Source: Candidatus Altarchaeota archaeon (GTDB taxonomy: Archaea; Altiarchaeota; Altiarchaeia; IMC4; DAOVSA01). Taken from it: a stretch of 12,897 bases of DNA. Both the position numbers and the translations under genes were made by a program. Positions 1-12,897 of the stretch are shown one piece after another (position 1 is the stretch's first letter; every line of letters starts with the position of its first letter). The notes under the pieces were generated by a model, which worked only from the letters and a program-made list of their open reading frames with translations, was not told where the DNA came from and ran no database searches. The stretch covers positions 1 to 12,897 of the forward strand of contig DAOVSA010000004.1 in NCBI GenBank assembly GCA_030633635.1, given 5' to 3'.

Positions 1-947
1 ATCTCAAATACAATCCCGGTGTAATATGCGAGACCCCTAGTTCTTCCAAGGTCTATAACAATGTCGATATCGTCCAAATCCTGGAAGTTCCCGAGATAAC
101 TGAGGGTATTTTTTAGATCCCGGAGTAATCGGGTGGATAAGTTCTCCTTTACCAGAATTTTTTCAATTTTCCCAATGGTTTTGGCATTTGGCTTTCCATT
201 AATATTAAGCAGTTTTTCAATGACATCCAGGATATTTTTTACATCTTCGATTTTCACCCCGGCATATCCCAGTTCCTCGCTTATTTTCTCGATTTTTCGT
301 TCCTTTATTTCATCCAATAGATTTATGATGCGTTCTCTGACAAAAGACTCGGTTTTTTCGTTCTCAAAGATCTCATGCAAAAAACCTAGATGACCTATAA
401 AGACCTTAAAATTCTTTAGTTTGAGTTTTTTTACACAGTCAAGTGCTATTGAGATTATTTCAGCATCCGATACAGGATTTTTACAATCGATAAGTTCGAT
501 TCCGGCGTGCCAAAACTCCCTATACCTTCCTTCCTGTGGCCTCTCATACCTAAATGCCTGGCCAATATAATATAATCTCATTGGTTTGGGAAGCATGCTC
601 CATTTATTGCAGTAGGCTCTTGCGATTGATGCGGTAAATTCCGGCCGTAAACAGATAGTTCTTCCACCCTTGTCCTCAAATAGATATATCTGCTGCCGTA
701 TGCTGTCCCCACTTCTCTCCGAATACATCCTATATCGCTCTATAACGGGTGTTATCACCTCAGCATATCCATAGGCCTCAAAAACTGTCCTGACCTCTCC
801 TTCCACGTGTTTAATCTTTGCCACCTGCTCTGGTGGGATATCTCTCACGCCAGTCAATGGTTCGGTTGATAACGACTTCTTTTTGAACTTTTTTAGTTTT
901 ATTCTCGTTTCTTCCTCAAAGAATGGTAATTTTGCATCGGATGTCAT
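1..947 (-). CDS. hisS: Histidyl-tRNA synthetase, 5' part (C-terminus beyond window edge)
   Basis: This cytosolic class II enzyme charges tRNA-His with histidine. The first 315 residues are present, and the gene is cut only by the window edge. Visible signatures are LTGVRDIPPEQ near residue 31, LRPEFTA at 100-106 (the substrate-pocket loop after motif 1), motif 2 with FRYERPQEGRYREF at 132-145, and the histidine-specific RGLAYYTGIVFE at 304-315, which separates it from other class II synthetases and from HisZ-type paralogues. About 28 lysine-rich residues precede the usual start of the family. I chose the ATG at 947, which has a weak GGA motif upstream. An in-frame ATG at 959, four codons earlier, is equally possible if the mRNA is nearly leaderless. 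It lies about 300 bp downstream of the RING-like gene on the same strand and probably has its own promoter. Confidence 0.93.
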   Translation of the reverse strand, partial: MTSDAKLPFFEEETRIKLKKFKKKSLSTEPLTGVRDIPPEQVAKIKHVEGEVRTVFEAYGYAEVITPVIERYRMYSERSGDSIRQQIYLFEDKGGRTICLRPEFTASIARAYCNKWSMLPKPMRLYYIGQAFRYERPQEGRYREFWHAGIELIDCKNPVSDAEIISIALDCVKKLKLKNFKVFIGHLGFLHEIFENEKTESFVRERIINLLDEIKERKIEKISEELGYAGVKIEDVKNILDVIEKLLNINGKPNAKTIGKIEKILVKENLSTRLLRDLKNTLSYLGNFQDLDDIDIVIDLGRTRGLAYYTGIVFE

Positions 948-985
948 CTTGATCCACATACTTTTATACTATTTTAGATATTAAT

Positions 986-995
986 CTATTTAATC
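986..995 (-). promoter_or_regulatory. Candidate TATA box for hisS
   Basis: On the minus strand this reads GATTAAATAG, an acceptable archaeal TATA element. Transcription starting about 25 bp downstream would fall near 962, giving an almost leaderless mRNA for the ATG at 959 or a leader of about 15 nt for the ATG at 947. The call rests on position and composition only. Confidence 0.35.
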
Positions 996-1181
996 TTTGT
1001 AATTTCCCAAAATAATTTCACTTTCGATAGATAATTTTCGGAACAGGTAAAAATACAGATGAGTATTCATGCTTGCCACTGGAACACTATTTCTTTCCAA
1101 GTTTTTCGCGGGAATATGGTTAGAATTCTTCTAAAGTATACTTACAAGTAAAACATACAAAAACTTTGCATCTTCTTCCAA

Positions 1182-1239
1182 GCTTGTCTTATAATGTATA
1201 ATGGGGCATCGCTTGTCTTGTGATGTATAATGGGGCATC
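1182..1239. repeat. 29-bp tandem repeat, two copies (27 of 29 bases match)
   Basis: Copy 1 is 1182-1210 and copy 2 is 1211-1239. They differ by two A/G changes at unit positions 10 and 12. Each contains GTATAATGGGGCATC. The array begins 14 bp past the stop codon of the RING-like gene, so it would lie in its 3' untranslated region. There is no spacer between copies, which makes this a tandem duplication rather than a CRISPR-type array. Confidence 0.9.
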
Positions 1240-1252
1240 TACTGGAAAACTC

Positions 1253-1408
1253 CTAGTGTAAGGGCCACCCACATATTGGACATGTTTTACGTCTCCATGA
1301 AAGGAGTCTACCACCAAGACATGATGCGCATATCCAGTGCCCATCTTCACATTCCTTTCCCCCAGCTTCATCCCTTTCTTCGCCACATTTAGAACATATT
1401 CTTGTCAT
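1253..1408 (-). CDS. 51-residue RING-finger-like zinc protein
   Basis: The product has seven cysteines and one histidine spaced C5-x2-C8-x11-C20-x3-H24-x2-C27-x2-C30-x12-C43-x2-C46, which fits the classical C3HC4 RING consensus and predicts two zinc ions in a cross-brace fold. RING-typical neighbours are also present: GHW before the third zinc pair, CASCL after it, a tryptophan (W38) in the loop before the last pair, and CPICGWPL at the end. The whole protein is essentially the domain. Against E3 ligase activity, the hydrophobic residue usual between the first two cysteines is Ser-Lys here, and the usual Arg after the last cysteine is Gly47. The start is well supported: an AGGTGAT Shine-Dalgarno sequence lies 5 nt upstream and an in-frame TAG precedes the start by two codons. 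It is divergent from the LOR/SDH gene. It could instead be a two-zinc ribbon in which zinc ligands pair sequentially. Function is unknown; the family assignment is by pattern only. Confidence 0.8.
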   Translation of the reverse strand: MTRICSKCGEERDEAGGKECEDGHWICASCLGGRLLSWRRKTCPICGWPLH

Positions 1409-1413
1409 ATTCT

Positions 1414-1420
1414 ATCACCT
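1414..1420 (-). promoter_or_regulatory. Strong Shine-Dalgarno site of the RING-like gene
   Basis: On the minus strand this reads AGGTGAT, a seven-base match to the anti-Shine-Dalgarno region of 16S rRNA, with a 5-nt spacer to the ATG at 1408. It fixes the start and argues that this short frame is translated. Confidence 0.8.
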
Positions 1421-1472
1421 CTTTTTTCTAACCAAATAATTTTTCGCTCATCTATAGAAGATTATTGCCAAC

Positions 1473-1482
1473 ATAAAAATAT
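1473..1482 (-). promoter_or_regulatory. Candidate TATA box for the RING-like gene
   Basis: The minus strand reads ATATTTTTAT in an AT-rich stretch. A start about 25 bp downstream would give a leader of roughly 40 nt, enough to carry the Shine-Dalgarno site. This is inferred from position. Confidence 0.35.
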
Positions 1483-1493
1483 ATTACCCAGAT

Positions 1494-1520
1494 TATTTAA
1501 AAGCAATTTAAGGTATTTAT
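1494..1520 (+). promoter_or_regulatory. Candidate promoter elements for the LOR/SDH-domain gene
   Basis: Two TATA-like stretches lie here: TATTTAAAAG at 1494-1503 and GTATTTATG at 1513-1521. Either would put the transcript start between about 1522 and 1542, ahead of the ATG at 1563. A further AT-rich block at 1537-1550 could act instead. The sequence does not decide between them. Confidence 0.35.
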
Positions 1521-1562
1521 GCATGGTTCTATAGTTATTAATTAAAATTATTCATCAAAAGC

Positions 1563-2801
1563 ATGGAAAATGCAGAATGCAAAATGACCGTTTCAGAGGA
1601 AATTGAATTAAAGGGACATATTATAGACTCTATTATCCTTCCAAGAGTCTTGGATGCAATAATGGATATGGAGGGTGATTTTGAGATCCTGTCACTGGAT
1701 GTTGGAAAGAAAAAAACAGATATAAGCACGGCGAGGATGGTAATCCGGGGCAAAGACCATGAACACCTGGATAAACTCCTCGATGAATTACAAATGCTTG
1801 GGGCTGTTCTTCCGGTGAAAAATGTCGAAACAGAAGTCGCACCAAGGGATAAGATCCTACCTGATAAATTTTATTCGACCACACATCACCCGACCTATGT
1901 TAGAATAAAGGACAGATGGATGAGGGCTAAAGACATTGAGATGGATTGTACCATAGTTATCGAGGATGAAAGAGCCATATGCAAAAGGCAGGGACTGGTA
2001 AAAAAGGGCGATAGGGTTGTTGTTGGCCATTCTGGAGTTAGAGTTGAACCACCTGAAAGATCCAGAAAACCAATGGATATTTTTGGATTCATGCAAAGCG
2101 ATGTTTCACCAGAAAAACCGATCAACTCCTATATCGTAGATCTGGCGAAAGAAATGAATCAAATCAGGGAGAATAATGGGAAGATCATAGTTGTCGCAGG
2201 TCCGGCGATAGTCCATACTGGTGCAGATAAATCTCTGGCGGAACTTGTTAGAATGGGGTATGTACAGGTACTGTTCGGTGGAAACGCACTGGCAGTTATG
2301 GATATAGAAAAACAATTGTTTGGAACTTCTCTTGGAATGGATGAGCACACAGGGTTGGTGCTTGAGAGAGGATATAAAAGTCATTTAGTAGCAATAAATG
2401 AGATCTGGAAGGTTGGAAGTATAAAAGATGCCGTTAAGAGGGGCATAATAAAAGAGGGAATAATGTATGAGTGTGTGAAATGTGAGGTTCCCTATGTGCT
2501 TGCAGGTTCTATAAGGGACGATGGGCCGCTGCCGGAGGTAATAACCGATGTCATGGAGGCTCAGGACGAAATGAGAAAGTACATCCAAGATGCGGATATG
2601 GTGATAATGACAGCTTCTATGCTCCACTCGATTGCAACCGGGAATTTATTACCCTCATGGGTTAAGACAGTTAGCATAGATATAAATCCCTATGTTGTCA
2701 CAAGATTGCAGGACAGGGGAACAAGTCAGGCTTTGGGTATAGTCTCTGATCCAGGAATGTTTTTGCCCAGATTGGTCGAGGAGTTGAAAAAGTTGGAATG
2801 A
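1563..2801 (+). CDS. LOR/SDH-domain protein, TIGR00300 type; probable alternative ornithine cyclodeaminase
   Basis: Archaeal members of this family have been linked to conversion of ornithine to proline with release of ammonia, using NAD, and are related to the C-terminal half of cyanobacterial arginine dihydrolase/ornithine cyclodeaminase. Residues 10-100 form the LOR/SDH conserved region (EIELKGHIIDSIILPRVLD onward). A conserved middle segment with GHSGVRVEPPER lies near 155-166. From about 205 to 405 there is a Rossmann-like nucleotide-binding half with KIIVVAGPAIVHTGADKS and LFGGNALAVMDIE. The length of 412 is normal for the family. Homologues usually begin close to EIELKGHI, so the ATG at 1584 (Met8) is a good alternative start. 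It stands alone on this strand and converges with the membrane-protein gene, with only 9 bp between the stops. Family membership is fairly sure; the enzymatic role comes from family knowledge. Confidence 0.8.
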   Translation: MENAECKMTVSEEIELKGHIIDSIILPRVLDAIMDMEGDFEILSLDVGKKKTDISTARMVIRGKDHEHLDKLLDELQMLGAVLPVKNVETEVAPRDKILPDKFYSTTHHPTYVRIKDRWMRAKDIEMDCTIVIEDERAICKRQGLVKKGDRVVVGHSGVRVEPPERSRKPMDIFGFMQSDVSPEKPINSYIVDLAKEMNQIRENNGKIIVVAGPAIVHTGADKSLAELVRMGYVQVLFGGNALAVMDIEKQLFGTSLGMDEHTGLVLERGYKSHLVAINEIWKVGSIKDAVKRGIIKEGIMYECVKCEVPYVLAGSIRDDGPLPEVITDVMEAQDEMRKYIQDADMVIMTASMLHSIATGNLLPSWVKTVSIDINPYVVTRLQDRGTSQALGIVSDPGMFLPRLVEELKKLE

Positions 2802-2810
2802 TCCCATCAA

Positions 2811-3155
2811 CTACTTCGTTACTGCTCCTTTTTTAATCTTTTTGAACGGATGAATCATTGAGTATAAACCATATGATATAGTTATGGAAGCGAGTACGCC
2901 CACAATCCCGGATATCTCCAGCATCATAGATTCATCTACTGCTATAACGATTAAGGTCTCCCTGATCGCCCATAGCATTATACCAATAAACATTATCTTC
3001 CATGCCCTCACAAATTTGTCTGAATTAAGGTAGAGAATTGCACTAATCGCCTTTGCCATCTTCTTGTCTGTAAATGTCTTTATTATATCTCCTATTATGT
3101 ACAGGCACACCAGAAGGACGCCCATATTCATAAGTCCCCATATGAAGTTTTCCAT
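2811..3155 (-). CDS. Small membrane protein with three predicted helices, unknown function
   Basis: This 114-residue protein has hydrophobic segments at about 4-25, 52-73 and 80-101, a basic loop between the first two (TFTDKKMAKA, then K47 and R50) and a basic tail (PFKKIKKG). The positive-inside rule predicts N-terminus out and C-terminus in. There is no signal peptide cleavage site and no catalytic motif. Each of the second and third helices is preceded or interrupted by charged residues (R65/E66, E80), which suggests helix packing rather than a simple anchor. It is transcribed divergently from the GTPase operon across 141 bp, so a shared regulator is possible. I do not recognise the family. 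The reading frame is supported by the clean hydrophobic pattern and the TATA-like site at suitable distance. Confidence 0.75.
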   Translation of the reverse strand: MENFIWGLMNMGVLLVCLYIIGDIIKTFTDKKMAKAISAILYLNSDKFVRAWKIMFIGIMLWAIRETLIVIAVDESMMLEISGIVGVLASITISYGLYSMIHPFKKIKKGAVTK

Positions 3156-3184
3156 TTTTATCTCATACCAGATCTCTACGAATT

Positions 3185-3192
3185 ATTTATAT
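3185..3192 (-). promoter_or_regulatory. TATA box for the small membrane-protein gene
   Basis: The minus strand reads ATATAAAT about 30 bp upstream of the ATG at 3155. Initiation about 25 bp downstream gives a leader of only a few nucleotides, a common archaeal arrangement. Confidence 0.5.
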
Positions 3193-3210
3193 TATTATTC
3201 ATCAAGTATT

Positions 3211-3268
3211 ATTCAGTCATATTCATATAAATAGATTATATTCAGTCATATTCATATAAATAGATTAT
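3211..3268. repeat. Exact 29-bp tandem duplication carrying a TATA box
   Basis: Copies at 3211-3239 and 3240-3268 are identical over all 29 bases. Each includes ATTCAGTCATATTC followed by a TATA-like ATATAAATAG (3225-3234 and 3254-3263). The perfect identity suggests either a recent duplication or selection on both copies. It lies in the divergent region between the membrane-protein gene and the GTPase operon. Confidence 0.95.
3254..3263 (+). promoter_or_regulatory. Probable TATA box of the GTPase-roadblock operon
   Basis: ATATAAATAG in the second repeat copy is centred about 38 bp before the ATG at 3297, placing initiation near 3285 with a leader of about 12 nt. The upstream copy at 3225-3234 would start a transcript with a leader of about 40 nt. 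A third AT-rich match at 3281-3290 is too close to the start codon to serve that ATG. Confidence 0.55.
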
Positions 3269-3296
3269 AAATAATATAGCATATAAATATTCTAAG

Positions 3297-4451
3297 ATGC
3301 TGTTACCCACTGGAATACCAAAACTGGACGAACTCATGGGAGGGGGAATAGAGAAAGGGGCATCAATATTATTTAGTTGTATTCCTGGAGTCCAGGGAGA
3401 ACCCCTTGTCGAGCATTTGCTTTATACAAGGCTGAATGTCGGCGATAAGTGTACATATCTGGTCAATAATAAAAAACCAAGCGATGTGAAACGAAGCATG
3501 AAAGATCTTGGGTGGGATATCGAGAGCCTTGAAAAAAAATTATCGTTCATAGATTCTTATTCTGGATTCATGGGCATACAAGGTGAGGAAAAATATATGA
3601 TCAGTGACCCATCCAATCTTGAAGATCTTGATTCTATGTTAATGGAGCTATTCTCAAAAATAAAAAATCAGGTGTTTATATTCGATTCATTGAGTACTTT
3701 GATTGATGTTCATGGGAATCCTAAAGAAATACAAGAAAAATTAATTAAATGGGTCCTTCTGTGTAAGAAAAGAGATATCACCTCGGTATATTTGTTCACT
3801 AGGTGGCCTTATGGCGATATCAAAACAATTGAAAATATCTTCGACGCCGTGATAAACCTAAAGACGATGGAAGAAAGAGTCATTTTCAGTCAATACTTCG
3901 AATTATCGAGAGCGAACTGGGCAAAACCTGTCAATAAAAGAATACCATTCAAGGTTGCGATGGGAGGGGTCCATGTGTATATGCCAAAGATACTGGTTAC
4001 AGGACCACATAATGCTGGAAAATCTTCTCTTGTTGAGGCATTATCCACGAAATCTATTAGTGTGGATAGACTGGGGACTACAATTGCTTTGGATCACGGT
4101 AAAACCTGTTATAATGGATTTATGGCAGAGTTATTCGGCACACCCGGGCAGGAGCGGTTCGATCCGATAATAAAACTGTTGAGTGGGGAGGCTTTGGGTG
4201 TTTTATTGATTATAGATAGTACCCAGCCGGAGACCTTTACGAGGGCCAAGGATATAATATCCATGACAAAGGCAAAGGGGTTACCCTATGTTGTGGTAGC
4301 AAATAAACAGGATTTACCGGACGCATTGAATCCAGCACAGATCAGAGATAAAATGAAACTCCCTGATGAAGTAAAAATAATTCCGGTTGTGGCAACCCAA
4401 AAGAAGGATGTTTTTAAGGCATTAGATGCATTATTTGAGCAATTAATTTAA
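3297..4451 (+). CDS. Degenerate KaiC-like domain fused to a Ras/MglA-like GTPase
   Basis: Residues 1-225 follow the KaiC/GvpD/RAD55 pattern: TGIPKLDELMGGGIEKG at 5-21, a Walker-B-like VFIFDSLSTL at 126-135, and a closing strand segment around 203-228. The P-loop position (SCIPGVQGEP, 27-36) lacks the lysine and Ser/Thr, so ATP binding there is doubtful. Residues 229-384 form a small GTPase: G1 GPHNAGKS at 236-243, G2 threonines at 261-262, G3 GTPGQERF at 281-288, G4 NKQD at 336-339 and a G5-like VATQKKD. The G3 aspartate is glycine while Pro-Gly-Gln is kept, resembling MglA and the COG2229 GTPases. The GTPase half should bind GTP and act as a cytosolic switch. It heads a three-gene operon with a roadblock protein (its likely partner) and a second KaiC-like protein. 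Domain assignment is firm; the cellular process is not known. Confidence 0.88.
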   Translation: MLLPTGIPKLDELMGGGIEKGASILFSCIPGVQGEPLVEHLLYTRLNVGDKCTYLVNNKKPSDVKRSMKDLGWDIESLEKKLSFIDSYSGFMGIQGEEKYMISDPSNLEDLDSMLMELFSKIKNQVFIFDSLSTLIDVHGNPKEIQEKLIKWVLLCKKRDITSVYLFTRWPYGDIKTIENIFDAVINLKTMEERVIFSQYFELSRANWAKPVNKRIPFKVAMGGVHVYMPKILVTGPHNAGKSSLVEALSTKSISVDRLGTTIALDHGKTCYNGFMAELFGTPGQERFDPIIKLLSGEALGVLLIIDSTQPETFTRAKDIISMTKAKGLPYVVVANKQDLPDALNPAQIRDKMKLPDEVKIIPVVATQKKDVFKALDALFEQLI

Positions 4452-4473
4452 TTTGGTTGAAATAATATGTAAA

Positions 4474-4845
4474 ATGGCGACAAAAAAGGAAGAATTAGAG
4501 GAAATTTTGAGTAAATTGAATAATGTGGGGGGTATAGAAGGGGGCTCTGTCGTCAGTAGAGACGGTTTGGTGATGGCATCCAATTTATCTGGCAACGTTG
4601 ACCCCGAGGTTTTTGCTGCGATGTCTGCCACCATGCTCGGGGCAGCTGAAACGGCAGTTTCAGAACTTGCTAAGGGAGAAACGGGGAGAGTTATCGCAGA
4701 ATCAGAGCAAACAAAGTTAATTGCAACTGGTGCGGGTCCTTTAGCCCTATTGGTGGTAATGACATCTCCCGATGCGACTCTGGGGCTGGCCCTTGTAGAG
4801 ATGCAAAAAGCTGCGAATAAGATAATAAGCGTCTTAAGTACTTAA
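4474..4845 (+). CDS. Roadblock/LC7 (MglB-like) protein
   Basis: About 123 residues from the chosen ATG cover one complete roadblock/LC7 domain: an N-terminal helix (KKEELEEILSKLNNV), the strand pair GGSVVSRDGLVMAS, a central helix (AAMSATMLGAAETAVSEL), then strands including KLIATGAGPLALLVVM and a C-terminal helix. Such proteins dimerise and bind MglA/Ras-like GTPases as activators or scaffolds; the GTPase encoded immediately upstream is the obvious partner. A longer form from TTG at 4453 adds seven residues and would leave one base between genes, but ATG at 4474 matches where the domain starts in relatives, so I prefer it. No membrane segment is present. The gene ends two bases before the next start, which implies co-translation in one operon. 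Confidence 0.88.
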   Translation: MATKKEELEEILSKLNNVGGIEGGSVVSRDGLVMASNLSGNVDPEVFAAMSATMLGAAETAVSELAKGETGRVIAESEQTKLIATGAGPLALLVVMTSPDATLGLALVEMQKAANKIISVLST

Positions 4846-4847
4846 AA

Positions 4848-5552
4848 ATGTCTCAAAAAGCAGTTAGTGGGATATCCAAATTGGATTCAGAATTGCACGG
4901 AGGTTTCGATGCTCCATCTACTATATTAGTATGGGGACCTCCAATGTCTGCAAAGGATATATTCGTGGAACAATTCTTTTGCAATGGCTTAAAAAAACAA
5001 GAAAGTGGTGTTTTCATAACGATCGATAAATCTGCCGAGGACATAATCTCCGAGATGAATGGGATGGGATATTCTCTAGATGAATATAAATCAAAAAAGA
5101 GTATAAAATTCATAGATTCATACTCCCGGCACATAGGCGATGAAAAACCGAGTGATGAGATATTTATTAGGGTTGAGGGACCCATGGCATTGAGTAAAAT
5201 CTGTACAGAGATTTATATGGCTAATGCTGAATTATCCAAGTTGGATAACCCTGTACGGAATGTAATACATTCAGTATCCTCTTTACTACTCTATAATAAT
5301 CCAGATACAATATTTAGATTTTTACAGGTCTTACTGGGGAAGATAAGTCGTTCTGGTGTCGTTATGATGATAACATTGGAGAAGGGAATGCATGATCCTC
5401 AAGTGGAAGCAACACTACAACATCTAGTCAATACTATCGTAGAATTTGATATCAAGAATGATCAGAACGTTATGCGGGTTGTAGGAACAAGGATGCGAAC
5501 TGATTGGATGCCATTTATAGTAACTCCCTCTGGAATTGTGATGGGGTTGTGA
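4848..5552 (+). CDS. Degenerate KaiC/RecA-superfamily protein
   Basis: The 234-residue protein is a single KaiC-like domain: SGISKLDSELHGGF at 7-20, a P-loop region GPPMSAKD at 30-37, the FITIDKSAEDI segment after it, and a Walker-B position reading NVIHSVSSLLL at 138-148. In active relatives the P-loop ends GK[ST] and Walker B has Asp; here Lys36 stays but the Ser/Thr is Asp37, and the Asp is His141. It is therefore likely a pseudo-ATPase, or at best a weak nucleotide binder. It resembles the N-terminal part of the upstream fusion protein in size and order, which suggests the two descend from one domain and may pair. It begins 2 bp after the roadblock stop and converges with rad50, with 17 bp between them. 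The role is unknown. Confidence 0.82.
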   Translation: MSQKAVSGISKLDSELHGGFDAPSTILVWGPPMSAKDIFVEQFFCNGLKKQESGVFITIDKSAEDIISEMNGMGYSLDEYKSKKSIKFIDSYSRHIGDEKPSDEIFIRVEGPMALSKICTEIYMANAELSKLDNPVRNVIHSVSSLLLYNNPDTIFRFLQVLLGKISRSGVVMMITLEKGMHDPQVEATLQHLVNTIVEFDIKNDQNVMRVVGTRMRTDWMPFIVTPSGIVMGL

Positions 5553-5569
5553 TAGGAATGAAATAAAGG

Positions 5570-8278
5570 TCATGCAACCACACATATCGAACTCCCGTCT
5601 TTTCGTTCGATCTTGAATAATTGATCTGCCGCACCCTCAAGCTCCTGATCGTGAGTAACCAGGATCACCTGGGGCAACATGGTGAGTTTTCTGAATATCT
5701 GTACCAGTTCCTGCCGCCTGTAGGAATCCAGATGAATCGTTGGTTCATCTAATATCATTAACTCACTTTTCCCTCTGGACAAAACCCTTGCTATTCCCAG
5801 CCTTAATGCCAGCGCGACTGCTATTTTTTCCCCACCAGAGATCATATCAATTGATTTTGAACCATCCATGCCGTACATCATGATGTTGTAATCATCATCA
5901 ATGGTGATGTTGGAATAGCCCATGTCAAAACCGCTGAATATCTCCCTGGTGAACCGCTCAATGGCAGGTCTTGCCCGGATTCTCAATTTTTTCTGCAGAT
6001 TATCTTTATCGAATAATTCCCGTAGCTGGGATAAGAAGGAGATAAAGTTTTCCAGTTTCTTTAATTCCTTTTCCTTGAGCGTTAATTTCTCTAAGTTCTG
6101 CTTTAATTTCCTGATATCGCCTATAGTTCCCTCTATCTCCACCTCAAGTTTTCCTTTCATGTTTTTTAGATCGTGTAGTTTTTCCTGATCTATTTCCCGT
6201 GATTTCTTTATTGTTTCGTGTTCTTCTTTATTGTATTGCAATACATCGATCTCCCGGGATAATCTCCTTATTTTCTCCTGGTGTTCCGATATCCTTGCCC
6301 TTGCCTCGTCTAACTCACTCTTTAGAGATTCTTTTCCCGCGATAACGCCCGATAGTTCGTCATATCTAGTCTTGCATCTTCTCAATATATCTAACTCCTT
6401 TCCGATGTCTTCTGGTATGGTTTCCAGTTTACTTGCATAACCTTGATACTCTCCTCTGTTCTTGATTAGCTTCTCTGTTTCTGATCTAAGAGATGTCTCC
6501 AGTCCGGGTTTGTTTTTCCCGTATTTCCCTAAGAAGTCCTGTGCTGACCTGTATTTTTCATAATCTGCTTCCAATTCTTTCATTAATTTCTCTTTTTCAG
6601 ACAGAATGGAATTGATTTCGTTTAACTTTTTGATCTCCCCCTGAAATTGCTCTTTTTCAATTGTTTGTTCCTTGATTTCCGTTCTTCTCTCCTGAATTGT
6701 TCTTGAGTTAGATTCAAGTAGATCGATAGGGATTGTGTTTATCGATTTTTCCATATCGGAAAGTCCCTTTCTCTTTAGTTCAATATCTTCTGCCGCTAAT
6801 CCAAGTTGTTGTATTTTTTGATCATTTGATGTTTTTTGGGTATTATATTCATCCAGAAGTCTTGTTCTATGCCCCTCTGTAAGTGATGCACCACATATCG
6901 GGCATTTTCCTCGGGCTTGATCTAATCCAGTTATTGCTTTTTTCAACTCCCAATTACGTACATTCAAACCCGAGATTTTATCCCTTAGTTCTCTTATTTC
7001 TTTTTCTCTACGATCAGAAGTCTCCTCTAAATTTACATTCTTCCAAGTAAGAATCTCCCTTAACTTTTCTATAGAATCTATCCTGCAACCAAGTATGGAG
7101 GATGCGTTTTGTAATGCTTGAGATATTTCATCAGTAAGTTTCTTTATGTTTTCTTGAAATCTATGGATATTGCTCTCTACCTGCTTCAATTCCCTGTCAG
7201 AACCTGCATATTTATCCCTCCTCCTTGTGATTTCCTCTATCTCGACCTTTATCTGGCAATATTTATTATAATTTGCTTGTGTTTCTCTGAGTGTTTTTTC
7301 AGATTCTGTTATTTGTTTTAAATCCTTTCGCACACCATCTAATCGTTGGACCAAAAATTCATTTTTAGTTTTTAGTTGTTGAAGTTTTTCCAGAAGTGGT
7401 ATTCGTTCAATCTTTGGTTTTAAGTCTTTTATTTCCTCTTCTGCTCTAGCTATGTCCTTTAAGTTGGATGAAAGAGTTGATTCCCTACTATTTTTCTCTT
7501 TCAAACCTTTCTCTTGGTTGTCCACATCACTGGATATCTTTAGAAACTTCTCCCTTTTCTCATCATACTCCTTTTTCCTTTTCTTAAGTTCTTCTACCGC
7601 CTCTTCCTGTAGAGAGATCTCCTCCTGTTTTTTGATTTTATCTTTCTCTTTTGCCTCCAGATCTTTGTTATTATTCTGTAGGTCTGTTTCTAACTCCCCT
7701 CTTCCTGCAAGTTCCCCTTCGATTACATCTCTTCTCGATTCAAAATCCTTAATGACCTCTGGCATCTTAGCCCATGCCTTTTGCAATGCATCAATACCAA
7801 GTAATCTTCCGACAATGTTTTTCCGTTCAGATGCGGTAGCGTCCAGCAGCCTTGCGATTTCGCCCTGCCGGATATACATCGCATGAAGAAATAGTTTGTC
7901 ATCTGTCTGTAGGATCTTTTTTATTTCTTCTGTAACTGCTCTATCGCCTTCCTGAATCATGTTTCCAAGGAATGTGCCGTTATTCTTTTTGAATAATCTC
8001 GATTCCGGGGCAAAATTCTCTCTTTTTTTACGAATAACCTTGTATTCTACCCCATTATGCTCAAAGATCAGCTCTACTTCCAGTTCATGAGTTTCTCTCT
8101 TGATCAAGTCGTCTATTCTTGCCACATGCTGTTTGAAGAGTGCAAAGGATATTGCTTCTAAAATGCTTGTTTTACCGGCCCCATTTTCACCGACCAGTAC
8201 GGAGATCCCTGTATCAAAATTCAATTCAGTATTTTTGTGGGACCTGAAGTTTTTAAGTTTAATATATTTTATAATCAT
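5570..8278 (-). CDS. rad50: DNA double-strand break repair ATPase Rad50
   Basis: Rad50 is the SMC-like ATPase of the Mre11-Rad50 complex that tethers and processes DNA ends. The 902-residue protein is complete: N-terminal ATPase half with Walker A GENGAGKTS at 30-38, long heptad-rich coiled coils on both sides of a zinc hook CPIC at 459-462, then the C-terminal half with signature SGGEK at 814-818, Walker B LMILDEPTIHLD at 840-851 (catalytic Glu845) and a final H-loop region around VILVTHDQELE. It is at the long end for an archaeal Rad50 because of extended coils. The start overlaps the mre11 stop in an ATGA, which fixes it and implies coupled translation. It is last in the nurA-herA-mre11-rad50 cluster. 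Confidence 0.98.
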   Translation of the reverse strand: MIIKYIKLKNFRSHKNTELNFDTGISVLVGENGAGKTSILEAISFALFKQHVARIDDLIKRETHELEVELIFEHNGVEYKVIRKKRENFAPESRLFKKNNGTFLGNMIQEGDRAVTEEIKKILQTDDKLFLHAMYIRQGEIARLLDATASERKNIVGRLLGIDALQKAWAKMPEVIKDFESRRDVIEGELAGRGELETDLQNNNKDLEAKEKDKIKKQEEISLQEEAVEELKKRKKEYDEKREKFLKISSDVDNQEKGLKEKNSRESTLSSNLKDIARAEEEIKDLKPKIERIPLLEKLQQLKTKNEFLVQRLDGVRKDLKQITESEKTLRETQANYNKYCQIKVEIEEITRRRDKYAGSDRELKQVESNIHRFQENIKKLTDEISQALQNASSILGCRIDSIEKLREILTWKNVNLEETSDRREKEIRELRDKISGLNVRNWELKKAITGLDQARGKCPICGASLTEGHRTRLLDEYNTQKTSNDQKIQQLGLAAEDIELKRKGLSDMEKSINTIPIDLLESNSRTIQERRTEIKEQTIEKEQFQGEIKKLNEINSILSEKEKLMKELEADYEKYRSAQDFLGKYGKNKPGLETSLRSETEKLIKNRGEYQGYASKLETIPEDIGKELDILRRCKTRYDELSGVIAGKESLKSELDEARARISEHQEKIRRLSREIDVLQYNKEEHETIKKSREIDQEKLHDLKNMKGKLEVEIEGTIGDIRKLKQNLEKLTLKEKELKKLENFISFLSQLRELFDKDNLQKKLRIRARPAIERFTREIFSGFDMGYSNITIDDDYNIMMYGMDGSKSIDMISGGEKIAVALALRLGIARVLSRGKSELMILDEPTIHLDSYRRQELVQIFRKLTMLPQVILVTHDQELEGAADQLFKIERKDGSSICVVA

Positions 8279-9411
8279 TTTCTCCTGTAAAATTCATGAT
8301 CTGCCATCTGCTTTGCTTCATCCACTTTATCTGATGAAAGCTTGTGAAATAATTCAACGGCAAAATCCACTCTCTCTTGGCTTTCTTTGCTTGTATTCAA
8401 GGATTCCTTGATGAGGTCTGAGATATCAAATTCCCCGGATACTGAGACATCAATTGATTCAACCTCTGTGGTGTAGTCTGGTTTCAGGTAGAGGATCATA
8501 TCCCTGAATGCAGAATTTATTTTGTTATGGATGGTCGGCCGGTCATATGATTTCCCGGAGATGTTCAGGCAGAGGATGGGTTTCCTGTTGAGTTCTTGTA
8601 TCCTGTTTTTGATTGCCTGTATGCGGTCATCTAATTCCGAAACGTTGAAAGATTCTTTTATAAAGGGTCTTATCGTTTCCAGGTTTATTGGTTGTATGTC
8701 CAGCTCGTCCCCACCCATATCCACGACATAGAATCCTTTACCCTTATTTTTGTAATCTTCATATTCATCTATCCTCCAGATCTCTGTAGACCCCGGGTAA
8801 ACCAATTTACCCTGACCATAATTTTGAATTATGCGCCTGTGGATATGTCCAAGGGCATAGTAATCGAAATTTGTAGGTAGTTCGCCGATTTTCAACTCGT
8901 AGGATCCGTTGAATGATAGGTATTTGTCTATTCCCTGGTGTAGGAGCAAAATTTTCTTTCTGTGGTTTTCGGCCTTTTTGCTTAATTGCTCTAAACTTTC
9001 CTTGAGGATGTTGGTATAGAATCTTGAGCAGTAGGGCACGCCGCCGATAAATATTTCCTTATGAACGTAGAATGGATTTTTATTCCTTCCAATAACCTTG
9101 ATCAGACCCCTGAAGAGTAATTGTGGCGGCAGGGCATCTTTTCTCATAGATATATCGTGGTTCCCAGGGATTGCATAAACCAGAATTCCCTTTTCCTTCA
9201 GTCTCCTCAGTCCATCTAAAACAGTGAGTAGTGCTCTTATCGGCGGTTTTGGAAACTCGAATATATCCCCCGAGTGTACGACAAAATCAACCCTCTCCTC
9301 GATGATCTTATCTATGACTTCACTGAAATTATCATAAAAGTCCGTTTCCCGGTCCGAAAGGTTGTATTGCATGTATCCCAGGTGGTTATCTGCAAGGTGC
9401 GCAAATTTCAT
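8275..9411 (-). CDS. mre11: DNA repair nuclease Mre11
   Basis: Mre11 is the manganese-dependent exo/endonuclease partner of Rad50. All phosphoesterase motifs are intact: D8 and H10 in ADNHLG, D49 in HSGDIF, N84/H85 in PGNHD, H158 in LLHQG, and H189/H191 in LGHIH. Residues from about 205 to 300 form the capping domain, and the C-terminal stretch (residues about 315-378, including SDLIKESL and VDFAVELFHKL) should contain the Rad50-binding helices. The 378 residues match archaeal family members. It is preceded by a repeat-rich 96-bp gap after herA and followed by a 4-bp overlap with rad50. The first ten codons and the bases just before them have a decayed copy in the nurA leader. Confidence 0.98.
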   Translation of the reverse strand: MKFAHLADNHLGYMQYNLSDRETDFYDNFSEVIDKIIEERVDFVVHSGDIFEFPKPPIRALLTVLDGLRRLKEKGILVYAIPGNHDISMRKDALPPQLLFRGLIKVIGRNKNPFYVHKEIFIGGVPYCSRFYTNILKESLEQLSKKAENHRKKILLLHQGIDKYLSFNGSYELKIGELPTNFDYYALGHIHRRIIQNYGQGKLVYPGSTEIWRIDEYEDYKNKGKGFYVVDMGGDELDIQPINLETIRPFIKESFNVSELDDRIQAIKNRIQELNRKPILCLNISGKSYDRPTIHNKINSAFRDMILYLKPDYTTEVESIDVSVSGEFDISDLIKESLNTSKESQERVDFAVELFHKLSSDKVDEAKQMADHEFYRRK

Positions 9412-9420
9412 TTTCTTTTC

Positions 9421-9504
9421 TGTACTATGTTCTGTATTATTGTACTATGTTTTCTGTACTATGTTTTACTTCTCTATACACTCTTTTACTGTTCTATACA
9501 CTCT
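9421..9504. repeat. Clustered short direct repeats between herA and mre11
   Basis: Three copies of TGTACTATGTT start at 9421, 9441 and 9455. Next to them is a 20-bp tandem pair (9465-9484 and 9485-9504; 18 of 20 bases match) built around CTATACACTC. Together they fill nearly all of the 96-bp gap between the herA stop and the mre11 start. The minus strand is A-rich and G-poor here, so the transcript would be largely unstructured. No clear TATA box was chosen within it. Confidence 0.85.
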
Positions 9505-9507
9505 GGT

Positions 9508-11079
9508 CTACCAACCCCCCTGACTACTTTTCAGATTTTCTTTTTCCTCATGTAGATTTTCTTGTTGTGTTTCATAGGCTTCATTCCATTCTTTAACAAC
9601 ATCCGGATCGCTTCCGGAGATTTTGCCTTTGAATTCATCGATTTTAACCAGCACAGGGATTTTTGTCATCAATCCAAGTATTATGGCTTCGCCTACGCCC
9701 AGGGAGGGTAGCTGTGATTTCAGATCCCCGCTTAGTTGTTCGCTTGCTTCCTGCACATAATTTATGTCAGATGGCTCAACCAGTCTCAGGATTATCTTGT
9801 TGTTTGTTTGCGACAGGCTGTTTGGATCCAGGGATTTTGGTCTCTGGCTTACCAGGCAGAGCCCGACACCGAATTTTCTTCCTTCTTTTGCGATTCTTGT
9901 GATCTGGTATTTCGAGTCAGTATCCCTGTCTTTTGGTGCCAGAAGGTGTGCTTCTTCCAGGATTGTGAAAACAGGGAATTGTAATCCTTCCGTTATATCT
10001 CCTTTTCTCGTTGACTTGATATGTCTTTTTCGCCCAGCCAATATTTTCTGCAAGGTATGGCTGACTATTACATCTATTGCCTGTTCATCCAGCGCACCAA
10101 GATCTATTATGTTCACAGAACCCACTTTTATAGTGCTTATGATATCAGGGGCGTTCATGTCAAGTACTGAGCCGTATCTTCTCCCCATGTGTCTGATCTT
10201 GTTAACCGCCCGGAGTATGGATTCCCGGTCCTTTACCGTGGAGTCCTCCAGATGGGCTTCCATCTTATCTCCCAGTTCCTCCAGATAATTTGTCTGGGTT
10301 CTATCAACCTTATCCCATGCCTTTTTAAGGTATTCCTCTTGCACATAGGCACCTTTACTGCCGATATTTGCGAGATTTGATAATTCAGAGAATCTGAGAT
10401 ATATCGGATTAATTTTTGCAGGTATTCTGTTTATTCTTCCCTCTCCAAATCCTGCCTCCGAATACTCGGAATGTATATCAAATAAGACTATAGCGCTCTT
10501 GTATTTCAGGAGACCATCAATTATAACAGCAACCGTGTTTGATTTTCCTCCCCCGGTGATAGATAGGATTGCAAGGTGTTTGGTCACCATTTTACAGACG
10601 TTGGCAAATACGGGGACGTCCGGTTGTGTTATAAGATGCCCTACCCGTATACAGCTATCGGTCATATCGTCTTTATTTTCCTGTTTGCTTTCGCTGTTTT
10701 CACCGAAAACCGCTCTTAGTATGTCTGAACCCGCCTTTTTAACTGTGGTTCCGGGTAGTGCCGGCACTCTTGGAATCTTAAGATTGTTGATATCTCTGAT
10801 GTCACCCAGTATCTTTATGTTGCCTGTAATGTAGTAGTCATCGCCCTCGATTTGTTTTATCCGATCTATAATGGTCGGATCATATATATCCTCCCCAATT
10901 GACGTGCTTCCCCTCATCAGGTTTTCGATCATACCTAAAACCTTTTGTCCTTCATATTCCAGAATGACAAATTCACCAACACTTGGCATCTTTTTTGAGA
11001 TAAACCCAACAGATGTTGGTGTTGCCTCACCTAAACATCTCCCTATTACATCACTACTTCCTATTACATCACTACTCAT
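9508..11079 (-). CDS. herA: Bipolar DNA helicase HerA
   Basis: HerA is a hexameric FtsK/VirB4-like translocase that drives NurA during end resection. The N-terminal HAS beta-barrel spans about residues 12-110 (GRCLGEATPTSVGFISKK onward). The motor follows: Walker A TGGGKSNT at 175-182, Walker B FTILEEAH at 371-378 with E375/E376, the conserved ITRIAKEGRKFG at 393-404 carrying the likely arginine finger, and SQRPKSLDPNSLSQ at 411-424. The first P-loop glycine is replaced by Ser173, a position that varies in the family. The 523 residues are normal. The ATG overlaps the nurA stop as ATGA. An 18-bp tandem duplication at the start gives the protein a repeated SSDVIG ahead of the barrel. An acidic, glutamine-rich tail follows residue 490. 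Confidence 0.97.
   Translation of the reverse strand: MSSDVIGSSDVIGRCLGEATPTSVGFISKKMPSVGEFVILEYEGQKVLGMIENLMRGSTSIGEDIYDPTIIDRIKQIEGDDYYITGNIKILGDIRDINNLKIPRVPALPGTTVKKAGSDILRAVFGENSESKQENKDDMTDSCIRVGHLITQPDVPVFANVCKMVTKHLAILSITGGGKSNTVAVIIDGLLKYKSAIVLFDIHSEYSEAGFGEGRINRIPAKINPIYLRFSELSNLANIGSKGAYVQEEYLKKAWDKVDRTQTNYLEELGDKMEAHLEDSTVKDRESILRAVNKIRHMGRRYGSVLDMNAPDIISTIKVGSVNIIDLGALDEQAIDVIVSHTLQKILAGRKRHIKSTRKGDITEGLQFPVFTILEEAHLLAPKDRDTDSKYQITRIAKEGRKFGVGLCLVSQRPKSLDPNSLSQTNNKIILRLVEPSDINYVQEASEQLSGDLKSQLPSLGVGEAIILGLMTKIPVLVKIDEFKGKISGSDPDVVKEWNEAYETQQENLHEEKENLKSSQGGW
11042..11077. repeat. 18-bp tandem duplication inside the start of herA
   Basis: Units 11042-11059 and 11060-11077 match at 17 of 18 bases and encode two SSDVIG-type blocks directly after the initiator Met of HerA. 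Being a multiple of three, the duplication keeps the frame and the ATGA overlap with nurA. Confidence 0.9.
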
Positions 11080-12125
11080 AGTATTTCTCTCCCTGTTTTT
11101 TCGATTATACCTAACATTCTTGATATTTTATTTATATCTTTATTTTTAATTACAACGTCATTGTGCGCCTTTTTTAGTAGATATGGGTAGCCCCCGGTAG
11201 AAATTGCCTTGAGTTTCGATAGAATCTGCTTTATTTCTTTTTCTTCAATCTTTCCCGGGATCTCAAACTTAAGAACGGTTGCATTATCCTCCAATCGTGC
11301 ATAAAAGATTGTGAACTCCAAACCGTCAAAGAATTTATGGGATATCGGCAGTCTCCGAAGTGCCCTATCGATTGAAACCAATTTTGGCTTGGAATATCCC
11401 TCTGATCTCGTTAGTTTCTCGAATATGATGATGTCAGGGAGATCGGATTCAAAATACTCTGCCCCGGTCGAGGTCTTGGATATTCCCACAGGGTGATGTA
11501 TTAAAAGTTGCTTAATCGACAGGAGGTATTCCAGGTACTCCAGATAGATGTTTGGGTCTATTTTTATATCGCCCGACTCTGTGTTAACTTTGACCTCATC
11601 TTTGAACCGCTTTACGGAGATTTCCCCGGTTGAATATATTGATTTAATTTTTGGCAGATATTCCTCCTCAATTTTTATTCGATGCGTGGGTGGTATGTAA
11701 CTTGCAGGGATTAGGGATCTGACTAATTCGCTTATCAATGAACCATCCATCAGGAAAATATCTGGATTGAATTTTTCTATAGATTTTAGGGATACCTTGA
11801 ATTCGTACAGTGACATATAGAGCCTTAATCTGTTTTCGATGAATGATTGCCTTGGAAATATGCCAACATCACCTGCCGAGGTGGAATTTAGTGTTTTGCC
11901 ATCAAAGGTTAATGCCTCGGCATCTACAGCGTAGAGAACGGATCCCTTGAATTCTTTTTTGTTCATGCTTCCGTCTTCTGCGCCGATTATAGCATGGGGG
12001 TCTTCATCAATGGAATCATTGTTCCAATAGTTATGAACCTCCTTTGCATCTGTCTTTACTTCCTCTATGCCCTGGATGATCTGTTCTTTATTCCTGAGGG
12101 TTGCCTCATAGAGCTCGGATAGCAT
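11076..12125 (-). CDS. nurA: 5'-3' nuclease NurA
   Basis: NurA is the toroidal nuclease partner of HerA, degrading the 5' strand after Mre11-Rad50 processing. The 349-residue protein shows the two DGS-type signatures expected of the family: IIGAEDGSMNKKEF with D51, and FLMDGSLISELV with D127. Both Asp are candidate metal ligands, and between them lies the conserved IENRLRLYMSLYEF segment (96-109). A late region including SYIPPTHRIKIEEEYLPK precedes the C-terminal half, which ends in basic helices. The ATG at 12125 is the first sensible start. It heads the resection operon and overlaps herA by 4 bp. Its transcript probably begins near 12285 and so carries a leader of about 160 nt that includes a 21-codon mre11-like mini-frame. 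Confidence 0.93.
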   Translation of the reverse strand: MLSELYEATLRNKEQIIQGIEEVKTDAKEVHNYWNNDSIDEDPHAIIGAEDGSMNKKEFKGSVLYAVDAEALTFDGKTLNSTSAGDVGIFPRQSFIENRLRLYMSLYEFKVSLKSIEKFNPDIFLMDGSLISELVRSLIPASYIPPTHRIKIEEEYLPKIKSIYSTGEISVKRFKDEVKVNTESGDIKIDPNIYLEYLEYLLSIKQLLIHHPVGISKTSTGAEYFESDLPDIIIFEKLTRSEGYSKPKLVSIDRALRRLPISHKFFDGLEFTIFYARLEDNATVLKFEIPGKIEEKEIKQILSKLKAISTGGYPYLLKKAHNDVVIKNKDINKISRMLGIIEKTGREIL

Positions 12126-12167
12126 TTTAGTGTCTATTATCTATAGTTTGGTGTCTATTATCCAACG
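12126..12167. repeat. 21-bp imperfect tandem repeat just upstream of nurA
   Basis: Units 12126-12146 and 12147-12167 match at 17 of 21 bases, sharing GTGTCTATTATC. They abut the nurA start codon, so the first copy occupies the place where a ribosome-binding site would lie. The minus strand reads GATAATAGACAC, which contains no good Shine-Dalgarno match. Confidence 0.75.
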
Positions 12168-12206
12168 TCTAATCTCTATGCGATGGTTTTCATCTTTTTT
12201 TGATAA

Positions 12207-12272
12207 TTACTCTAGATGTTCCTTAGAGATGGTGTGGATAAAAGGGTTATTTGCAACGTGTGCAAATTTCAT
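12207..12272 (-). pseudogene. Decayed copy of the mre11 start, now a 21-codon mini-frame in the nurA leader
   Basis: The mini-frame begins MKFAHVANN, against MKFAHLADN in Mre11. At DNA level 12245-12277 matches 9384-9416 at 30 of 33 bases, covering the first nine codons, part of the tenth, and a few bases before the ATG. Similarity ends abruptly after that, and the rest (to TAA at 12207) is unrelated. The catalytic Asp8 codon has become Asn, so this is no functional Mre11. It lies downstream of the likely nurA promoter and may be translated as a short leader frame; no strong ribosome-binding site precedes it. Confidence 0.75.
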
Positions 12273-12307
12273 TTTCTATTTCCCAGCTTTCTGAACTTAA
12301 AGATGGG

Positions 12308-12316
12308 TATATAAAA
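12308..12316. promoter_or_regulatory. Symmetric TATA element between nurA and pyrB
   Basis: TATATAAAA contains the self-complementary TATATA, so it can be read from either strand. On the minus strand it would start a nurA transcript near 12285. On the plus strand it would start a pyrB transcript near 12337 with a leader of about 35 nt; a second plus-strand candidate, CTAAATAGAA at 12331-12340, would shorten that to about 10 nt. Confidence 0.45.
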
Positions 12317-12346
12317 ATGTGTTCTAATTTCTAAATAGAAGATTGA

Positions 12347-12897
<551 letters not shown>

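Follow-up and report, generated by a model that had tools for sequence, protein, structure and literature searches.

A 51-residue RING-like protein of an altiarchaeon: a probable stand-alone zinc adaptor rather than a ubiquitin ligase

Introduction

The small RING protein srfp of Caldiarchaeum subterraneum is described in PMC5654768 as a RING-H2 (C3H2C3) protein whose operon also encodes ubiquitin, a ubiquitin-activating enzyme (E1) and a ubiquitin-conjugating enzyme (E2), and that has ubiquitin ligase (E3) activity in vitro. A different role is reported for aS34 of Saccharolobus solfataricus, a two-zinc protein on the beak of the 30S ribosomal subunit that has ca 80 residues, seven cysteines and similarity to RING domains (PMC11698992); thus, an archaeal RING-like micro-protein can be a ribosomal protein. 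Micro-proteins with two C(P)XCG motifs are frequent in archaea: they account for 43 of the 282 Haloferax proteins no longer than 70 residues, and phenotypes are reported for 12 of 16 deletions (PMC6562870). Here we analyse a 51-residue frame with eight RING-type zinc ligands in a 12,897-nucleotide stretch from a Candidatus Altarchaeota archaeon (assembly GCA_030633635.1, contig DAOVSA010000004.1, positions 1 to 12,897 of the forward strand), referred to below as the window. We conclude that its product probably acts as a small zinc adaptor that stands alone, and not as a ubiquitin ligase.

Results

Ligand layout, RING profile signal and predicted fold

The frame runs on the minus strand from an ATG at 1408-1406 to a TAG stop at 1255-1253. 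An earlier note on this DNA had proposed it without giving a strand, and had claimed the spacing C-x2-C-x11-C-x3-H-x2-C-x2-C-x12-C-x2-C together with RING-like sequence contexts; the frame is real, its ligands (C5, C8, C20, H24, C27, C30, C43 and C46) have exactly this spacing, and the contexts are present in the translation as DGHW, CASCL and CPICGWPL. The eight ligands also satisfy the canonical RING consensus, C-x2-C-x(9-39)-C-x(1-3)-H-x(2-3)-C-x2-C-x(4-48)-C-x2-C, as given in PMC11354881.

A profile search and a structure prediction, two kinds of check that the earlier note had called for, both yielded a RING-like signal. The best Pfam match was zf-RING_5 (PF14634), with 27.2 bits (E 3.8e-6) over residues 5-47 and model positions 2-42 of 43, followed by zf-C3HC4_3 with 20.6 bits. 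As a control we scanned nine shuffled decoys against Pfam, with Met1 and the eight ligands held fixed. One of the nine reached zf-RING_5 (10.2 bits), and the maximum was 12.0 bits for any RING model and 16.4 bits for any family; therefore, the residues between the ligands carry RING-like information of their own. When 29 genomes were searched with the zf-RING_5 profile, the frame itself ranked top at 25.3 bits and the runner-up reached 17.9 bits. At an E of 1, 14 of the 29 genomes had matches, none above the cut-off, and weak matches were also seen in 8 of 14 controls. The top NCBIfam score was 14.7 bits (cut-off 600), the top PHROGs match had an E of 0.075, and PADLOC gave no family.

A single-sequence AlphaFold2 model (predicted local distance difference test, pLDDT, 80.7) shows the elements in treble-clef order, and its fifth and sixth ligands lie where a helix begins. 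In a Foldseek search with this model, RING-type structures made up 43 of the 50 rows listed. These predictions support a RING-like fold, in which C5, C8, C27 and C30 would hold one zinc and C20, H24, C43 and C46 the other.

The fold is compatible with more than one function. It could belong to a ribosome-associated RING-like protein, either a functional analogue or a remote relative of aS34, which we consider unlikely. The second-ranked VIA row was 9fhl chain a, which we take to be probably aS34, although the identity of the chain could not be confirmed; aS34 and the 51-residue protein gave no sequence match at E up to 10. More specifically, the protein might be the Altiarchaeota counterpart of Thermoprotei aS34, a lineage-specific ribosome-bound RING-like protein with no link to ubiquitin, in which case archaea would have recruited RING-like binuclear fingers to translation on more than one occasion; this narrower version is the more doubtful of the two.

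It is also improbable that the ligands adopt another zinc arrangement, such as sequential ribbons like those of C(P)XCG proteins or HVO_2753, and that the RING spacing is a coincidence. With the P taken as optional, the protein does fit the C(P)XCG micro-proteins, having CSKCG at residues 5-9 and CPICG at residues 43-47 of 51, and we read such a pair in fewer than 70 residues as the mark of the haloarchaeal micro-proteins described in PMC6562870 and PMC11241148. Furthermore, zinc-ribbon RNA-binding chains appeared as weak sequence matches (E 3.7 to 7.3), and the 50 Foldseek rows listed include two ribosome chains, 9nri_BV and 9qf4_BV. However, the best zinc-ribbon model scored 16.8 bits, compared with 27.2 bits for the best RING model, and the treble-clef order of the predicted model, with ligands 5 and 6 starting a helix, argues against ribbons.

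Evidence for a gene and search for relatives

The finger occupies the whole frame, which spans 52 codons from stop to stop and opens one codon ahead of the ATG. The strong Shine-Dalgarno site that had been claimed for it is present as GAGGTGAT and is, by eye, the strongest such site among 12 starts in the window. Shine-Dalgarno sites pair with the 3′ end of 16S rRNA. The canonical RING spacing, written as a regular expression, had a single match across the six frames of the window and none in 1000 first-order Markov sequences of window length, and a scan of 67 records (the window and 66 others) for the RING consensus gave matches at this one locus only. The synonymous codon score of the frame, based on a codon table built from 11 other window genes, is 0.150, which is 3.7 standard deviations above random synonymous choices (-0.107, standard deviation 0.069); the 11 genes themselves score 0.009 to 0.114. 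Other coding signs are less clear. Codon log-odds barely separate the true frame (0.093) from frame +1 (0.039), and G+C by codon position is 0.47, 0.61 and 0.29, compared with 0.47, 0.32 and 0.41 in the other genes, a departure that we attribute to its richness in Cys and Gly codons.

Searches for relatives gave little. Pattern scans, whose reliance on an exact 8-residue word limits them to near relatives, confirmed none of 589 stretches in genome contigs and none of 57 in viral contigs. With tblastn, phages gave one record (best E 0.1) and plasmids two, the best of which (E 0.05) was a bacterial RING-domain protein. Among 61 genomes (the own genome and 60 others) there were two matches at an E of 0.01, namely the own genome and G042, in which residues 11-50 aligned, at an E of 0.0048, with a 437-residue frame that Pfam does not match; of these 61 genomes only the own is convincing. 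The phylum of G042, searched in one genome, gave no match. The phylum search, whose 29 genomes were those of the class search, matched three genomes at an E of 0.1: the own genome; G016, where the match is an Nre protein; and G013, where it is 27 residues encoded antisense to a long open frame. No match in the 28 relatives of this set is convincing, and another archaeal phylum gave none in 151 genomes at an E of 0.001. Empty genome searches that include no positive genome are weak evidence. Among the open-licence papers listed, an altiarchaeal RING protein was not found in titles or abstract openings.

Conservation beside hisS, a further check proposed in the earlier note, was not found, since the hisS loci of 25 other genomes of the class carry no RING-type frame within the ~1.5 kb examined on either side; some of these loci are cut by contig ends, and all 25 genomes lie outside the family of this archaeon. 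Candidatus Altiarchaeales archaeon isolate B52_G2 (G013) is the nearest named relative, and there the RING query yielded just E 0.095 and 0.149. The LOR gene of this isolate has 68% DNA identity to that of the window but a different upstream neighbour, and no small cysteine-rich frame was found upstream of it. With no second genome of this family among those returned, lineage restriction and recent gain are indistinguishable.

The lack of a homologue in every search made, the differing neighbour of the LOR gene and the unclean log-odds and codon-position G+C would all suit a chance open frame. Set against the empty Markov control, the strong Shine-Dalgarno site, the synonymous codon score and the RING signal beyond the ligands in the decoy control, this explanation is very unlikely. 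The frame is very probably a gene, and we accept it as such because of the uniqueness of the spacing, the Shine-Dalgarno site, the synonymous codons and the finger-filled frame, not because of conservation.

The question of ubiquitin ligase activity

Next, we considered the suggestion in the earlier note that the protein could be a minimal E3-like adaptor or an orphan zinc protein. A RING-like fold and an orphan zinc protein are supported by the Pfam, decoy, model, Foldseek and VIA results, while the E3-like reading is not supported. Ubiquitin-system families were not found among the ten other window proteins scanned with Pfam (pyrB left out), in agreement with what had been noted. The E2 family UQ_con gave no match at an E of 1 in any of the 29 genomes, including the own, with no E2-bearing archaeon as a positive control. 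ThiF/E1 gave none in the own genome at an E of 0.001, although 9 of the 29 genomes had a ThiF match, 5 of them passing its cut-off. Ubiquitin (PF00240) gave none in the own genome at an E of 1, ThiS/MoaD-type modifiers and the deubiquitinase family JAB not having been searched for; 19 of the 29 genomes had a PF00240 match at E up to 1, none above the cut-off. These absences are not final, because the own assembly (868,591 bases in 193 contigs) is 70.95% complete.

The positions through which RING E3s contact E2 and ubiquitin are K7, R34 and G47 in the 51-residue protein, which thus lacks a hydrophobic residue in zinc loop 1, the helix tryptophan carried by many E3s and an Arg/Lys linchpin after the last cysteine. 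The exact places of the tryptophan and linchpin relative to the ligands are those of c-Cbl, which we assume to apply here. Where the protein has K7, UBR4 has Ile4840, which lies between Cys4838 and Cys4841 and touches the E2 (PMC10873205). The corresponding residues of srfp matter, as I30Q abolishes the reaction and W58A and R69A impair it (PMC5654768), and Arkadia is reported to require its linchpin arginine and to use its helix tryptophan (PMC9954413). UBR4 is active without a linchpin (PMC10873205), so a missing linchpin alone is no proof against E3 function. A minimal RING E3 serving an unseen ubiquitin-like system, for which the C3HC4 spacing, the RING profile signal, a genome just 71% complete and the need for the small archaeal srfp in ubiquitylation in vitro (PMC5654768) could be cited, is therefore a very unlikely explanation, given the E2, ThiF and ubiquitin results and the three contact positions.

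Neighbouring genes

The coordinates of the features at the locus are collected in Table 1.

Table 1. Features at the RING-like locus, in window positions
Feature	Position	Strand	Basis
RING-like zinc protein gene	1253..1408	minus	ORF list, spacing, Pfam zf-RING_5, decoys, structure model
Shine-Dalgarno site GAGGTGAT	1414..1421	minus	direct reading; end 5 nt upstream of ATG
Intergenic region between RING-like gene (minus) and divergent LOR/SDH-ArgZ-like gene (plus, start 1563)	1409..1562		ORF list, Pfam
29-bp unit present twice, head to tail, between RING-like gene and hisS	1182..1239		Tandem Repeats Finder

An RNA fold of 1180-1260 (minus) gave a z of -0.21 and no hairpin support for the 29-bp repeat. 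This repeat is one of three intergenic duplications (1182-1239, 3210-3269 and 9464-9504, with units of 29, 29 and 20 bp) among 14 repeat rows. The product of hisS (3-959, minus) has at most 43% identity to its matches in 25 other genomes of the class, whereas HerA, on the same contig, has 85% identity (best segment) to the B52_G2 copy; hisS could be a paralogue or have been acquired. The HerA identity points to an altiarchaeon as the most likely host. HerA, Mre11 and Rad50 (5570-11079) also occur together in B52_G2 (record L029, 7279-16007), where an exonuclease-like and a helicase-like gene, named by eye, separate HerA from Mre11; past Rad50 the gene order differs. At 3297-5552 (plus), Pfam shows a 384-aa fusion of a KaiC-like ATPase with an Arf/Ras-like small GTPase and, immediately after it, a Roadblock/LC7 protein and another KaiC-like protein; together these look like a compact GTPase-Roadblock cassette. 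Between this cassette and the LOR/SDH-ArgZ-like gene lies a gene for a 114-residue protein (2811-3155, minus) that is hydrophobic by eye and has no Pfam match at an E of 0.001.

Discussion

On balance we favour a zinc micro-protein that is restricted to its lineage, has a RING-like fold and acts as a binding adaptor, and consider this reasonably likely. The protein would be non-catalytic, its rigid RING-like finger serving as a platform from which the loop that follows the helix (RLLSWRRK, residues 34-41), basic and with a tryptophan, is displayed to a protein or ribonucleoprotein partner. Charge is split along the chain, with residues 1-24 acidic (-3.4) and residues 25-51 basic (+3.8). Several points weigh against this interpretation. 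No RING model exceeded its curated Pfam cut-off, PF14634 scoring 27.2 against 27.9 bits, and because of this 0.7-bit shortfall we file the protein as RING-like only. The structural scores are modest, the model rests on a single sequence, and conservation of the gene was not found in the genomes searched. Finally, 5 of 14 haloarchaeal C(P)XCG proteins are reported to have been zinc-free when purified (PMC11241148).

A full C3HC4 layout thus occurs in an archaeon whose available, incomplete assembly yielded no trace of an E1, an E2 or ubiquitin, and a RING-like frame in an archaeon should therefore not, on its own, be taken for evidence of ubiquitin signalling. Should the protein prove to bind the ribosome or another nucleoprotein, this would support the view that RING-like fingers served more generally as scaffolds for binding, independently of E3 function.

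Like srfp, as presented in PMC5654768, the protein is a small archaeal one with the RING-type order of eight ligands; unlike srfp, it is of the C3HC4 type, ubiquitin, E1 and E2 partners were not found in the data, and it lacks the I, W and R/K contacts. It resembles aS34 in being a small archaeal protein with a RING-like structure, predicted in our case, and two zinc sites, putative in our case, while aS34 has ca 80 residues and one tryptophan and is described from Thermoprotei only (PMC11698992). With the C(P)XCG micro-proteins of Haloferax volcanii, whose motif pair is thought to hold one zinc (PMC6562870, PMC11241148), it shares an archaeal origin, a stand-alone form, a length below 70 residues and two CXXCG motifs. 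Unlike that type, the 51-residue protein adds C20, H24, C27 and C30, which complete the RING order.
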